From NCBI RefSeq assembly GCF_022539405.1, contig NZ_CP054394.1:498501-562500 (forward strand): DNA of 64,000 nucleotides. Reading direction: 5' to 3'. The stretch is from Natranaerofaba carboxydovora. Lineage in GTDB: Bacteria > Bacillota > Natranaerobiia > Natranaerobiales > Natranaerofabaceae. A model generated the notes under the pieces. The model had not been told where the DNA came from, made no database searches, and worked only from the letters and a program-made list of their open reading frames with translations. Positions 56,641-64,000 of the stretch are shown here, piece after piece; the stretch's first letter is position 1, and each line of letters starts with the position of its first letter. Position numbers and translations under genes: made by a program.

Positions 56641-58424
56641 TTGTCAACCACTGACCTTGAAATATTACTAAACAATACATATGATGCTATGTTTTTAATA
56701 GATGTAGAAAATGAAAACACTTTTCAATTTAAAACAGTTAATGAACAATTTAAATATTTAACAGGTTTAACTACAGCGGGATTACAGGGGGGAACTCCAC
56801 ACGACTTCTTAGACAAGGATACAGCTGACTTTATAACTTCTAAACTATATTAAATGCTGTAAATTGAAAGAGAGAGTTGAATATGAAGAAACCCTTGACT
56901 TGCCTGTGGGAAGACTTACTTTTCATACAGTGCTTTCTCCTGTTATTGAAAATAACAAGGTGGTTAAAATAGTGGGTTCTGCTCGTGATATTACCGAGCA
57001 GAAACAGCTGGAGATAAAGCTTAGAAAAAGTGAACAAAAATTTAGAAGTTTTGTGGAAAATGCAAATGACATTATATTTACTGTAGACGAAATATGGAAT
57101 ATTTGAATATGTTTCGCCCAACTGGGAAAAGGTGCTTGGTCACAATGTAAATGAAATTATAGGGAAAAGTTTTGATGAATTTTTACATCCAGAAGACTAT
57201 GAAAAAATGAGATGCTTCCAAAGTAAAATATTGGAACAAGGTTTGTTAGAAGAAAGCGTTGAGCACAGGATAAAGCATAAAAACGGTACTTGGAGATGGC
57301 ATAACTCAAGATTTAATCTGCTAGAGGAAGCAAAAGATGACATATGCATACTGGGGATAGCTAGAGATGTAACAGAACAAAAGGAAGTCGATGAGAGGAT
57401 TCGACATATTAGCTTTCACGACAGCTTAACAGGATTGTACAATCGCTACTATATTGAAGAGGAAATTAAAAGGTTGGATACAAATGAACAGCTGCCTATA
57501 AGCTTAATTATGGCTGATGTAAATGGTTTGAAGCTTCTTAATGACACTTATGGGCACAAAGCTGGTGATGAACTGATAAAAAAGGTAGGGAATCTTTTAA
57601 AGGAGTTTACTAGAGACAAAGATATAGTAGCCAGGTGGGGCGGGGATGAATTTGTTGTATTACTCCCTCAAACAAGTAAAGAAAAAGCAGAGAAAATAGC
57701 CCAAAGATTAGTACAAGAATGCAGAAAAAAATATGTTGAAGCTGTACCAGTTAGGTTTGCTGTTGGTACTTATACAAAGGATTCTAAACATATATCTATA
57801 GAAAAAGCTTTCAATGAAGCTGAAAATAGAATGTATAAAAATAAGCTAGATGAAAGAAATGCCACAAGAAATGAGATGGTTTCAGCAATGCTTAACACAT
57901 TAAAAAACAAAAGCAGTGAAACAGAAGCTCACCTATCGAGGATGGTGTTTCTAAGCTACAGGTTTGGTAATGCTCTTAATCTTTCTGAAGAAGATATGGA
58001 AAAACTTTTTTTAATAGCTACCCTACACGATATAGGTAAAATTATTTTGCCTGAAAAAGTACTAAAAAATGAAGGGCGATTAACCAGCGAAGAACATGAG
58101 TTATATAAAGAACATCCAAAAAAAGGAGAATACATAGCCAGAGCTTCAGAAAATTTTGTCCACTTAGCCGAAGATATTGGCTCACATCACGAACGTTGGG
58201 ATGGCAAAGGATATCCAAATGGATTAGTAGGAGAAAACATACCTTTTTTTGCAAGGGTAATAGCTATAGTAGATTATTACGAAAATAAAACAAATGATTT
58301 TTTAGGAGAAAAAGCTATGTCGAAAGAAGAGGCCCTTAAAGAAATAAAAGAAAATGCAGGTATTTTTTTTGACCCTGAATTAGCTAAAGTATTTGTTTCA
58401 TTTATAAAGAAGGGAAATATATAA
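56641..58424 (+). pseudogene. PAS-PAS-GGDEF-HD-GYP regulator with two frameshifts
   Basis: TTG 56641 (AGGAGTG upstream) begins a PAS domain stopping at 56853. The frame resumes as KERVEYEETLDLPVGRL in another frame, stopping at 57106. One base later VSPNWEKVLGHN continues to 58424. An extra A near 57092 (gaaatatgg for gaatatgg) explains the second break. The GGDEF core (WGGDEF) and HD-GYP motifs (HDIGK, HHERWDGKGYP) look intact, so a 430-residue product from GTG 57132 is possible. Paralogue of the 40165 gene. Confidence 0.8.
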
Positions 58425-58591: not shown

Positions 58592-58852
58592 AGTGGGGGT
58601 TGCAAAACCTGATAAATACTGTTATGATGGGAAAGGCTAGAGTTCAAGGGAGTAGTTGGCGAGCTGGTGCTCCCCGCGGACTTCAAATCCACGAGAGCCT
58701 AGTGGAAAAAATAAACAACCCTTTTATACCAGGGGTTTTGCGATAACAAAAAATGGGAACGAGGAGAAAAGTACATAACTTGTCACACGAAAGTGACACG
58801 AGAATATATTATGATGACTGCTACACCTTTCTGATTTTCAGGAAGGTTTTTT
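58592..58852 (+). ncRNA. Candidate structured RNA with a tRNA-Sec-like arm
   Basis: A TATAAT at 58581-58586 and an intrinsic terminator at 58825-58852 bracket a ~260-nt unit. GCAAAACC (58602) pairs with GGTTTTGC (58734), enclosing a GC-rich core unlike the AT-rich surroundings. The core contains GAGC-TGGT-GCTC (58661-58672), like a D arm, and GCGGA-CTTCAAA-TCCAC (58676-58692). The loop CTTCAAA with UCA anticodon is the selenocysteine tRNA loop, although one stem pair is C-A. No T-arm or matching 3' acceptor strand is visible, so it is a degenerate selC or another RNA. The preceding 58425-58591 holds nothing evident. Confidence 0.45.
58825..58852 (+). terminator. Intrinsic terminator
   Basis: The stem acctttctg / caggaaggt with a 5-base loop runs into TTTTTTG then TTTTTG. 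It ends the candidate RNA unit, 170 bases before the next gene. Confidence 0.8.
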
Positions 58853-59023
58853 GTTTTTGTAGAGTGTGTTTTGTTATGTTTAATCGTTTATGCTGTTGCA
58901 GGGAAATTATTTCCTATGAAGAATTGAAATAAAGTAGAATAGACGCTTAAGAAGAATTTAAAGTACAAGCAAGCAGATTAAATAATAATTAATTAGTAAG
59001 AACAAGATAGGAGTGAGTTTCAG

Positions 59024-59935
59024 TTGAAGAAAATTATAATAGTATCATTATTTTTGTTATTAATGCCTACGGTTGTACTTGCAGAAGATGTACAAATTGC
59101 TGCAAGTATTGAAGGAGAGGAACTATTAGTATTTGTAGATGACAAACAAGTTAATTTTCCCGATCAAGAGCCATTCATAGATGAAAATAATAGAACTATG
59201 ATACCTGTAAGGTTTCCCACTGAAGCTTTTGGAGCCGAAGTGGATTGGGTACAGGAAGAACAAAAGGTAGTAACAAAAAACCAAGACAGGGAAGTAAAGA
59301 TGTGGATAGATAACAATATCATGGAAGTTAATGGGGAAGAACAGGAGATGGACACTACTCCTATAATAAAGAATGATAGAACGGTAGTACCAACACGCTT
59401 CATAGCTGAAGCTCTTGGGGTAGATGTGGATTACGAAAGGGTAAGTTACATAGCTGAAGATGATTCGGAAATTGTATCTGATAATATAGGGATAGTGTTT
59501 AATTTTACAGAAGATCAACTAGAGTCAGAGATAGAACAGTTAAAAGAAGATATAATGACTAAAGTAAAAGATAACTTACCAGAGATAGAAGTGCCTGAAG
59601 ATCCTGCGGATGCACATCCTGCGTTAGATGATTATAATTTAGATTATGAAGTAGACAAGAAGTATATAGATGAGTTGGGTCATGAGGATACAACGTTACA
59701 TGAACCTAATGAGTTGCAAGGTTTATCAGCGTATATGTTTTATGATGGTTGGACAGAAGAGGGTAGACAAGATGCAGCGAGGATATTAAACAGAAGGTTG
59801 CAAGATATGGATAAGGTGAATGAAATAATGGATTATGTTGAGAATGAGGGGATGCCACAAACATTTGAGCGGTTTGAAACGGATAGTTATACTATTAGAA
59901 TAGCTTCAGATTTATTATATATATATGAAAAATAA
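59024..59935 (+). CDS. Secreted copper-amine-oxidase-N-like (stalk) domain protein 1
   Basis: 303 residues from TTG behind ATAGGAG. Signal peptide KIIIVSLFLLLMPTVVLA. Residues ~35-150 hold two stalk-type beta units: FIDENNRTMIPVRFPTEAFG and IIKNDRTVVPTRFIAEALGV, as in Cu_amine_oxidN1 domains. A C-terminal region (about 185-303) reads DPADAHPALDDYNLDYEVDK and EGRQDAARILNRRLQDMDKV; it is shared with the next gene and unrecognised. Exported, probably cell-wall associated. Confidence 0.82.
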   Translation: MKKIIIVSLFLLLMPTVVLAEDVQIAASIEGEELLVFVDDKQVNFPDQEPFIDENNRTMIPVRFPTEAFGAEVDWVQEEQKVVTKNQDREVKMWIDNNIMEVNGEEQEMDTTPIIKNDRTVVPTRFIAEALGVDVDYERVSYIAEDDSEIVSDNIGIVFNFTEDQLESEIEQLKEDIMTKVKDNLPEIEVPEDPADAHPALDDYNLDYEVDKKYIDELGHEDTTLHEPNELQGLSAYMFYDGWTEEGRQDAARILNRRLQDMDKVNEIMDYVENEGMPQTFERFETDSYTIRIASDLLYIYEK

Positions 59936-59953
59936 TAAGGTGGTGATATACTT

Positions 59954-60736
59954 ATGGGTAAAAAAATTGTTTTAATTTTAGCCTGTTTATCAGTATTGAT
60001 TTCTAGCTCTACAGCATTTGCATCAGATATTGACATTTACATATACGGTGAGAGGGTAAATTTTGAAGATCAAGAAACTTTTATAGATGAAGAAAACAGA
60101 ACACAAGTACCAGTGAGATTTGTCAGTGAGTCTTTAGGTGCTGATGTAGACTGGTTAGAAGAAGAACAATTAGTAAAAATAGAAAAAGAAGATACATTCT
60201 TAGAATTAACAGTTGGGGAAGCTGAATATAAAAAGGATGGTCAATCAAAAGAGATGGATACTTCCCCTGTAATCACTGACAAAGGCAGAACAGTAGTACC
60301 ACTAAGGTTTGTAAGTGAAGGTTTGGGTAGTAAAGTAGAATGGGCGGGTAACATCAACACAGTGTTTATAGGTAATATTGAAGATTGGGAAGTTCCAGAA
60401 TATCCTGCTAATGTTCATCCAGTTATGGGTAATTACTGGGAAGATTATGAAATAGACAAGAAGTATATTGAAGAGTTAGGTCATAAAGATACAACTTTAA
60501 GAGAGCCTAATGAAGGTGCTGATTTAGTAGCAAGTATGTTTTTTGATAGTAGGACAGAGGGAGGTAGGCAGGATGCAGCAAGAATAATTAACAGAAGAGT
60601 TCAAGATATGGATAAGGTGAATGAAATGATAGATTTTGTAAAATATACAGAAGATCCATCAATAGAAAAAGAGTTTGAGTGTGATAATTATTTAATTACT
60701 ATTTCATCAGGACTATTTTATATTTGGGAAAAGTAG
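59954..60736 (+). CDS. Secreted copper-amine-oxidase-N-like (stalk) domain protein 2
   Basis: 260 residues from ATG behind AAGGTGGTG, 18 bases after protein 1, so the same operon. Signal peptide IVLILACLSVLISSSTAFAS. Stalk units FIDEENRTQVPVRFVSESLG and VITDKGRTVVPLRFVSEGLG. The C-terminal ~110 residues (YPANVHPVMGNYWEDYEIDK, GGRQDAARIINRRVQDMDKV) are a clear paralogue of the unknown domain in protein 1. Confidence 0.82.
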   Translation: MGKKIVLILACLSVLISSSTAFASDIDIYIYGERVNFEDQETFIDEENRTQVPVRFVSESLGADVDWLEEEQLVKIEKEDTFLELTVGEAEYKKDGQSKEMDTSPVITDKGRTVVPLRFVSEGLGSKVEWAGNINTVFIGNIEDWEVPEYPANVHPVMGNYWEDYEIDKKYIEELGHKDTTLREPNEGADLVASMFFDSRTEGGRQDAARIINRRVQDMDKVNEMIDFVKYTEDPSIEKEFECDNYLITISSGLFYIWEK

Positions 60737-60753
60737 AAAAAGAGGAAATTGTT

Positions 60754-61007
60754 TTGTATAAAAGATTACTTTTGTTAGTAATATTATTAATGTTTATTCT
60801 GTCATCAAGTGTATCAGCAATATTAACTAGACATGATGATATTAGTGATGATTGACAAGATCATATATTTGATATGACAGAGATGGTAAATCATCCAGAG
60901 TTTGTTATTCTACCTGATTATGTGAATGAAGAAATGACGGAGAAACTTATGGTATAGTGGGCGGAATACCAGATGATATGAATCTGGTTAAGAAAAAAGA
61001 TATTTAA
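60754..61007 (+). pseudogene. Decayed secreted protein gene
   Basis: TTG 60754 with GAGGAAA upstream encodes a good signal peptide (LLLLVILLMFILSSSVSAIL), then HDDISDD and an in-frame TGA at 60853-60855. The frame continues DMTEMVNHPEFVILPDYVNE to a stop near 60958, then in a shifted frame GIVGGIPDDMNLVKKKDI to 61007. At least two lesions. Confidence 0.55.
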
Positions 61008-61056
61008 AGTAAAACTTAGAATTAAATTACAAGAGTCTAAGGAGAGGGGTTCTAAC

Positions 61057-62742
61057 ATGAAAAAATTTAGTTGTTTATTAGTATTTTTATTGATAATTGG
61101 TTTATCAGGGGTAGTAAGTGCGGAGAGTTCTGATATTGAAGTATTGATAGATGGTGAGGGGGTAAGATTTGAAGATCAAGAACCATATATTGATGAAAAT
61201 AACAGAACGCTTGTACCATTAAGATTTATTAGTGAAGCATTAGGGGCAGAAGTAGAATGGGATGGAGATAATAACAAAGTATTAATTAGTGATACGGTAA
61301 TAGTAGAAGAAGAGAGTAATATATCTGATGATGTAATTAATAGTGGGTTAGAAGAAATTACAGATAATTTAGCAATGTTAGCCGGTAGTGTAGTAACAGA
61401 AGATAATAAAATAATGACAAGAACAGGGTTAGATTTAGAATTAGAGATTGAAAGCAGTCAAATAAATACCAAATATAATATAATACCTGTTTTTGAAGAG
61501 TTTGAAGAAGAATTTAAGGATATTTTAAATTTAACTAATGAAGATATTTATGATATGAGAGAAGAAAAAATACAGGAGTATGGGATGGACGATGATGAAA
61601 GCTTTCAAGATGAGATTGAAGATTTAATTAATATGGATACTGAGCCTATTTTAACTGATAAAGGAAGGACAATGGTGCCATTAAGATTTGTTAGTGATGC
61701 GTTAATAGCAAATATAGAATGGGATGATGGAGTAATATTAATAGAGACAGAAGAAGTGAGAGTATCAGAAGAAGATTATCGAAGTGAGGTTAGTAATTTT
61801 ATAGAGATATTTTCAAATAATTTATATGATGATAGTGATTATTTAGAAGGAGTATTCCCGGTAGAAGGAGTAGATGGTTATTCTGAATTAAATGATATAG
61901 AATATGAGTATTATGATAATAATGTAAAGTTAGATTGGGGTGAAAAGCCTACAGGTGGTTATTATATAAGTGTGGAAGATATATATAAACAAGGTGATGA
62001 TTTAATAGTAGAATTTTATGTGACTGTGCCTGGGGATAGTGCTGTGACACAAGCAATAACAAATCCCAGGCATCAAGAAGAAGTAGATAAGGAGTACAGA
62101 GATTTTGACAATATTGAGTTAGATTTGACAGAAGTTATTGTTTTAGGAGAAGAAGAGGAAGATGATAGTGAGGTAGTTGAAAAACCAGATAAGGATGAAG
62201 AAGATGAAGTAATTGAAGAGGAAGATATTGATGATAAAGATATAGTTGATATAAATAATATAGATTATGATAGATTAGATAGAAAAGTATTTGAATATAC
62301 TAATGATATAAGGGAAGAGTATGGTTTAAACAGGCTTGGTAGTCATGATTTATTAGATGAAGCTGCAAAAATGCATTCAGAGGATATGATAAATGATGAA
62401 TTTTATTCCCATGAGAATCCTTATGATGGTGATAAAACAAGACCAGGGGACAGAGCAGAGTATGTTGGTATAGATAATCCTTATATAGCGGAAAATGTAT
62501 TAGATTATCCAATTGCAATTCATCAAGAATTTACTTATGATGAATTAGCATATAATTTTGTTGATGGCTGGTATAATTCAGATGGACACAGAAGAAATAT
62601 GTTAAATGATGAAGCTAAAATATTGGGAGTAGGTTCATATGGAGGTAATGTAGGGGCGGCAGCTAATAATTTTGAGGGTGATACCTTTGTAATAAGGTCA
62701 ACTCAGAAGTTTCAGGTTTATGAAGAAGTGGAAGAAAAATAG
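61057..62742 (+). CDS. Secreted protein with stalk domains and a C-terminal CAP/SCP (PR-1-like) domain
   Basis: 561 residues behind AAGGAGAGG. Signal peptide CLLVFLLIIGLSGVVSAESS. Stalk unit 1 (about 25-85: YIDENNRTLVPLRFISEALG) and unit 2 (about 190-235: ILTDKGRTMVPLRFVSDALI) are separated by an acidic insertion. A Glu/Asp-rich linker (about 365-405) leads to the CAP domain (about 410-555), with EAAKMHSEDMINDEFYSHEN, then IAENVL and FVDGWYNSDGHRRNML, the His/Glu cleft residues of bacterial YkwD-like proteins. Surface-exposed; CAP function in bacteria is uncertain. Confidence 0.88.
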   Translation: MKKFSCLLVFLLIIGLSGVVSAESSDIEVLIDGEGVRFEDQEPYIDENNRTLVPLRFISEALGAEVEWDGDNNKVLISDTVIVEEESNISDDVINSGLEEITDNLAMLAGSVVTEDNKIMTRTGLDLELEIESSQINTKYNIIPVFEEFEEEFKDILNLTNEDIYDMREEKIQEYGMDDDESFQDEIEDLINMDTEPILTDKGRTMVPLRFVSDALIANIEWDDGVILIETEEVRVSEEDYRSEVSNFIEIFSNNLYDDSDYLEGVFPVEGVDGYSELNDIEYEYYDNNVKLDWGEKPTGGYYISVEDIYKQGDDLIVEFYVTVPGDSAVTQAITNPRHQEEVDKEYRDFDNIELDLTEVIVLGEEEEDDSEVVEKPDKDEEDEVIEEEDIDDKDIVDINNIDYDRLDRKVFEYTNDIREEYGLNRLGSHDLLDEAAKMHSEDMINDEFYSHENPYDGDKTRPGDRAEYVGIDNPYIAENVLDYPIAIHQEFTYDELAYNFVDGWYNSDGHRRNMLNDEAKILGVGSYGGNVGAAANNFEGDTFVIRSTQKFQVYEEVEEK

Positions 62743-62865
62743 TTAATAAAAATTAAATTAATGTTTTAAAATAGGTAGTAAAAATAAGCTAAAAAGATAC
62801 TAAGTTAAAGTGTAGCAAAGTTAAAACAGTTAAAAAGTCCTTATGAGGGCATAATCTCCCTGGAG

Positions 62866-64000
62866 TGTTTGTGGCAAAATAGAAATGGAGAAAATGGCAA
62901 GATAAAAATCCCGTAAAAATTGGAAAAAAAGTCATTGCCAGCATCCCAAAAATATCATACCCTTCTAATTGTAATCTACCAAAAAACAGTTAGAAGGAGG
63001 AAAAGAAAGGATGCTGACAATGACTCAACAGTATAATATCAAATACTTATCATTTCATAAAGGAAAAAAGTACAGCGAAATTAGCAGGGAAACAGGCCAT
63101 GATTTCAAAACTGTGAAAAAATACGCCGAGAAGGAAGGTTTTAATGATAGTCCTCCCCGGAGAAAGAAAAAAAGTTCAAAACTTGACCCTTTTAAACCAA
63201 CTATTGATCAGTGGTTAAATGAAGATACAAAAGCTCCAGTAAAACAGCGGCATACAGCTAAAAGAATATACGATAGATTAAAAGAGGAATTTAAGGAAAA
63301 ATTTAATGTTTCTGAAAGAGTCGTTAGATATTACGTATCAGCTAAAAAGAGAGAAATATTTGGTGATAGTGAAGCTTATCTTCCCCTTGAACATCCTTCT
63401 GGGGAAGCTCAAGTGGACTTTGGCGAGTCACTAATTTATGAAAACGGCAAAGAAATCAAAGGGCATTCTCTAGTCTTATCGTTTCCCCATAGCAATGTAG
63501 CTTACGAGCAAGTTTTCAGGGGCCAAAACCAGGAATGTTTGTTGGAAGGGCTGCAGAGGATATTCAAATATATAAACGGTGTTCCCACAAAGATTTGGTT
63601 TGATAATCTATCTGCTGCAGTGAAAGAAATTAAGAAAAAAGGTGAAAGAGAGTTAATCGAACAATTTGAAAAATTTGCCCTTCATTACGGGTTTCTCCAC
63701 AACTTTTGTAATGCCGGCAAATCAAATGAAAAAGGTCATGTGGAAAACAAAGTAGGCTTCACCAGGCTAAATCATTTTGTCCCCGTTCCTTCCGTATCTG
63801 ACATAGAAGATTTGAATGAAGAACTTTTTCAAAAAGCAGAAAACGACGCCCAAAAACTGCACTACAAAAAACAAAAGAAAGAAGCAGAGCTATTTGAAGA
63901 GGATAAAAATTGCTTACTTAAATTACCGGACAAGCCTTTTGATATTGGCCGATTGGTAAAAGTAAAAACAAATAAATATGGAAAAGTTGAATTAGATAAA
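62866..64000 (+). mobile_element. IS21-family element B, copy 2, running off the window
   Basis: Begins TGTTTGTGGCAAAATAG and is collinear and nearly identical with the reverse complement of 49643 leftward. It is on the plus strand, opposite to copy 1. The flanking bases before it are ccctggag, so its target duplication would have to be sought beyond the window. The interval 62743-62865 before it contains no gene. Confidence 0.93.
63011..64000 (+). CDS. istA: IS21-family transposase IstA (element B, copy 2), 3' end beyond window
   Basis: ATG 63011 begins MLTMTQQYNIKYLSFHKGKK; 330 codons are visible with no stop. It includes the HTH and most of the DDE core (GEAQVDFGESLIY, EKGHVENKVGF). Differs from copy 1 at Gly versus Asp near residue 39 (one A to G change). 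Confidence 0.93.
   Translation, partial: MLTMTQQYNIKYLSFHKGKKYSEISRETGHDFKTVKKYAEKEGFNDSPPRRKKKSSKLDPFKPTIDQWLNEDTKAPVKQRHTAKRIYDRLKEEFKEKFNVSERVVRYYVSAKKREIFGDSEAYLPLEHPSGEAQVDFGESLIYENGKEIKGHSLVLSFPHSNVAYEQVFRGQNQECLLEGLQRIFKYINGVPTKIWFDNLSAAVKEIKKKGERELIEQFEKFALHYGFLHNFCNAGKSNEKGHVENKVGFTRLNHFVPVPSVSDIEDLNEELFQKAENDAQKLHYKKQKKEAELFEEDKNCLLKLPDKPFDIGRLVKVKTNKYGKVELDK

Follow-up and report, generated by a model that had tools for sequence, protein, structure and literature searches.

The window analysed here (the whole stretch of DNA, 64,000 nucleotides) contains, between a gene for a PAS-GGDEF-HD protein and three genes for secreted-type proteins, a 261-nt segment with a promoter-like site, two arms that resemble those of the selenocysteine tRNA, and a terminator-like hairpin (Table 1). 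The original prediction had described this segment as a structured RNA and offered two readings, a broken selC or an RNA not described before in the leader of a secreted-protein operon. Much of that description was borne out: the GAGC-TGGT-GCTC hairpin is present at 58661–58672, the GGA-CTTCAAA-TCC anticodon arm is present at 58678–58690, no T arm is found, the segment has its own extended −10 element (TGTTATGAT), and there is one terminator-like hairpin with a T tail where 0.2 would be expected in shuffled sequences. The position upstream of the secreted-protein genes is also as described; nothing beyond position makes the segment their leader, and the terminator-like hairpin intervenes.

Table 1 Features at and around the predicted left island end (window coordinates unless prefixed C1)
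Feature	Position	Strand	Basis or comment
PAS-GGDEF-HD gene, the final host gene before the predicted island	57132..58424	+	Pfam GGDEF, HD_5, PAS_3
Putative native selC promoter	58600..58628	+	Consensus scan: −35 TTGCAA 58600-58605, 17-nt spacer, −10 TATGAT 58623-58628, TG ahead
Predicted attL core: selC nt 1–43 plus one upstream base	58647..58690	+	100% identity to C1:608445-608488; acceptor 5′ strand, D arm, anticodon arm
TCA anticodon within the core	58683-58685	+	
Left end of the predicted ~51.3-kb island	58691..64000	.	Extends past the window to C1:608444; direct repeat, end-specific repeats, recombinase fragment
Putative recombinase arm-type site GTCACACGAAAGTGACACGAG	58782..58802	+	Other genome copies at C1:608286 and C1:608329
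Terminator-like hairpin and T tail, just within the island	58825..58857	+	Hairpin 58825-58847
First island genes: three secreted-type proteins	59024..62742	+	Cu_amine_oxidN1 in first and third; third also CAP domain

A search of the whole genome revealed that the tRNA-like part of the segment is identical, at 44 of 44 positions (E 5e-16, far beyond chance), to the beginning of the intact selC gene, which lies on the same strand 51.3 kb downstream. The block common to both copies comprises nucleotides 1–43 of tRNA-Sec and one base upstream, and stops within the 3′ side of the anticodon stem. The intact gene (C1:608446-608542) scores 70.3 bits in Rfam and is called as tRNA-SeC by ARAGORN, and SelB is encoded elsewhere in the genome (376.6 bits against a cut-off of 242), so that selC has a role to serve in this organism. 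The window copy falls short of the complete structure of a functional tRNA-Sec, in which an acceptor stem, a long variable arm and a T arm are all present. Because only half a gene is present, the Rfam tRNA-Sec model (RF01852) matches 58649–58722 at just 22.2 bits (gathering threshold 47, E 0.07, relaxed thresholds), and ARAGORN calls no tRNA in the window. No family reaches its gathering threshold anywhere in the window, and the relaxed scan added chance matches alone.

The two copies of this block are thus direct repeats separated by 51.3 kb: the fragment comes first, then the intervening DNA and finally the intact gene. The repeat starts one base before the tRNA, on the side that is correct for a 5′ fragment. 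This is the arrangement by which islands in tRNA genes are recognized, with an intact selC at one end and, on the correct side of the other end, a 5′ fragment in the same orientation. Joining the two flanks in silico gives a complete tRNA-SeC, whereas the fragment region alone gives none. Both ends carry further repeats: a double TCACACGA-type repeat, searched for as the motif GTCACACGANANTNACACGAG with up to 2 mismatches, has three copies in all 3.26 Mb of the genome, each just inside an end of the intervening DNA (one at the left, ~90 nt inside the core, and two at the right, ~95–160 nt inside the core). (Note that a whole-genome control with the reversed motif gave 0 matches, and that the motif was not found in viral contigs.) These repeats sit where the arm-type sites of a recombinase would be expected and are putative sites of that kind. 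Near the right end, a 111-aa C-terminal fragment of a tyrosine recombinase reads towards the intact selC and ends ~160 nt upstream of it. The fragment matches positions 124-171/172 of PF00589 (E 4e-5) and displays the HxxR, H and Y motif residues; the remainder of the protein is absent, and because of this truncation its score (23.8 bits) falls under the family cut-off of 27.1. No second copy of the fragment was found in the genome, and too little of the protein is left to place the island in an integrase subfamily. The GC contents of the intervening DNA and its flank (32.9% vs 34.1%) differ too little to serve as island evidence. An empty site was sought by way of relatives from the same order, whose selC flanks share only the tRNA, and a search of named genomes for the aminotransferase flank returned distant hosts only.

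The identity of the fragment to selC, together with these signs of an island, argues that the segment is very probably the left attachment site (attL) of a ~51.3-kb genomic island inserted into selC by a tyrosine recombinase. On this reading, the tRNA-like element is selC's own 5′ half, preserved exactly and displaced when the island integrated at this specific site. In particular, we propose that the attP site of the island would have recombined with the selC gene of the host, acting as attB, within the 44-bp core formed by tRNA-Sec nucleotides 1–43 and one further base, with the crossover probably at the anticodon stem-loop, and that the recombinase may have bound the end repeats. The host promoter and the 5′ half of selC would have stayed behind at the left end, followed by island DNA. 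At the right end (attR), an intact selC would have been rebuilt from a 5′ half supplied by the island and the 3′ half of the host, and would now be transcribed from a promoter inside the island.

This proposal bears on which promoter is native to the host. Upstream of the intact gene at attR lies a second promoter (TTGCTA/TATAAT, 17-nt spacer), 29 nt from the tRNA as compared with 19 nt at attL. In two relatives from the same order, selC is preceded by TTGCAA-17-TATAAT and TTGCAA-17-TACAAT, about 16–17 nt ahead of the tRNA, so that the attL promoter is the closer of the two to those of the relatives both in its −35 element and in its distance. The native host promoter would therefore most simply be the copy at attL, as judged from these two relatives of another family. 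If so, the island supplied both the 5′ half and the promoter at attR, and transcription of the working selC now starts within island DNA. Transcripts from attL, if there are any, would be dead chimeras that end at the terminator-like hairpin.

Could the segment instead be a functional RNA, a small RNA or leader that has recruited the 5′ half of tRNA-Sec and runs from the promoter at 58600 to the terminator at 58825? Promoter-like and terminator-like sites do stand on either side, and the 261-nt stretch folds somewhat better than shuffled sequences. The latter effect is modest: the z-score is −1.8 for 58592–58745 and reaches −2.9 once the 3′ hairpins are included. The original prediction had further supposed an outer helix that encloses everything, formed by GCAAAACC (58602–58609) and GGTTTTGC (58734–58741). 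However, the first arm overlaps the −35 hexamer and hence lies upstream of any transcript that starts from this promoter, whereas the second arm falls in island DNA, so that the supposed helix spans the junction between host and island. Its length is also within chance: of 100 shuffled sequences, 7 contained a Watson–Crick helix that equalled or exceeded it, and with G-U pairs allowed the figure was 3. We rejected the outer helix as a functional RNA structure on these grounds; it is best read as a coincidence. The 5′ half of the segment, moreover, is selC letter for letter, whereas the rest matches neither an Rfam family nor the 3′ half of any selC examined. This 3′ part has no other copy in the genome or near selC in the relatives that were read, the 261-nt stretch as a whole has no second copy in the genome, and the sequence after the core is accounted for as the left end of the island itself. 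Of the two alternatives posed at the outset, the broken selC stood, by virtue of the 44/44 identity and the intact gene 51.3 kb away, and we consider a functional RNA here to be very improbable.

We regard as still more improbable a partial duplication of selC in which site-specific integration played no part, and which arose by slippage in replication, a transposon or homologous recombination. Such a reading draws on a third copy of selC, at C1:1995695-1995790 on the minus strand (L013:3196-3291), which is 92% identical, scores below the cut-off (44.7 bits) and is damaged at positions in the acceptor, D-stem and T-loop; this decayed copy indicates that there has been at least one other copying event at the locus. 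Integration, by contrast, fits the end-specific repeats and the recombinase remnant at attR, as well as the start of the repeat at the tRNA, the orientation, the side on which the 5′ fragment lies and the island-type cargo. The third copy nevertheless counts against the attL reading, since a single integration event does not account for it. At least ~70 nt of the sequence upstream of it is of the island type and contains the island promoter; the copy is likely a pseudogene derived either from an older integration or from a duplication of attR. Had it come from the present attR, the attL fragment would have escaped selection over the same time or longer and should be decayed too, yet that fragment is identical to selC at 44 of 44 positions.

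The cargo of the island begins with the three secreted-type proteins. A transposase-like open reading frame with an integrase-core (rve) match occupies window positions 63011–64000 and is followed by a second open reading frame at C1:563013; the two look like an IS21-type pair inside the island. Next come an AddB/AddA-like nuclease–helicase pair, an AAA protein with an LlaJI restriction enzyme, a ClpB-like ATPase and a WYL regulator. A histidyl-tRNA-synthetase-like protein of 411 aa (Pfam tRNA-synt_His and HGTP_anticodon) is encoded within the island at C1:591699-592934 (L015:14800-16032). Near the right end are a NERD-kinase, a kinase and a helicase that match MkoA (407.6 bits for the helicase), and a weak match to MkoB (36.7 bits). 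In this Mokosh-like locus (C1:598492-605249; L016:1693-8447), MkoA is split over separate kinase and helicase genes. Family matches such as these suggest that the cargo includes defence functions, namely LlaJI-type restriction and a Mokosh-like system. With the attL reading, what had been a puzzling structured RNA becomes a precise island boundary, one that marks off 51 kb of DNA with defence-family genes in the genome of a deep-branching member of the Bacillota.

Islands in enterobacterial selC, including LEE, PAI I and phiR73, use the 3′ end of the gene and keep the native promoter; the island described here shares their target, but it appears to have replaced the 5′ half and the promoter instead. 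A literature search for selC islands in Clostridia and Firmicutes returned nothing useful. Among the 3,919 islands catalogued by Islander, 3,760 have a 3′ tDNA fragment and 159 a 5′ fragment (PMC4383910). Like the islands of that class, the present one has a displaced tRNA fragment at one end and a rebuilt gene in the same orientation at the other; here, however, it is the 5′ half that was displaced, and of the tyrosine recombinase expected beside one end just a remnant is left. The site is therefore of a known kind, of the minority 5′-fragment type, to which it adds a case. Rebuilt tRNA genes in bacteria keep their original promoter with very few exceptions, and attachment within the 5′ half, with expression driven by the element, is known for archaeal integrases of the pTN3-like type and rarely seen in bacteria (PMC8371274). 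The pTN3-like elements likewise supply the 5′ half of the gene, so that transcription of the rebuilt tRNA gene starts in the element's own DNA; those elements are archaeal and their integrase gene is split on integration, whereas here the host is bacterial and a recombinase fragment is found at one end only. The locus would thus be a clear example of a tRNA gene, in this case the genome's only intact selC, whose 5′ half and promoter come from a mobile element, and it makes control of selenocysteine supply by such an element a testable idea.

A pattern built on the D loop and anticodon arm of selC matched in 239 of the 399 phylum members searched; because it misses 3′ fragments that do not contain the D loop, these counts do not give a rate. 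More than one match was found in seven genomes, the present one included, and each of these was inspected. In one of the others (G235, loci L116 and L117), an 83-nt block, promoter to anticodon arm inclusive, is common to a 5′ fragment and the intact selC, the C-terminus of a recombinase reads into the intact gene, and a 22-nt repeat (91%) lies near both ends; this genome is an independent parallel to integration at the 5′ half of selC. Another (G147, L112 and L113) has a 61-nt 5′ fragment of selC and, ~0.6 kb upstream of the intact gene, a recombinase gene in the opposite orientation. In both genomes, contig breaks prevent the two ends from being joined. That the island took over transcription of the only intact selC, such that selenoprotein synthesis needs the island promoter, and that integration at the 5′ half of selC also recurs in the Bacillota (in G235 and probably G147), is as a combined claim rather unlikely in our estimate. 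Among the genomes inspected, one (G285, L108) has a second selC copy without a 5′ end, which is a 3′ fragment, and another (G382, L109–L111) has four copies at contig ends, possibly tandem islands.
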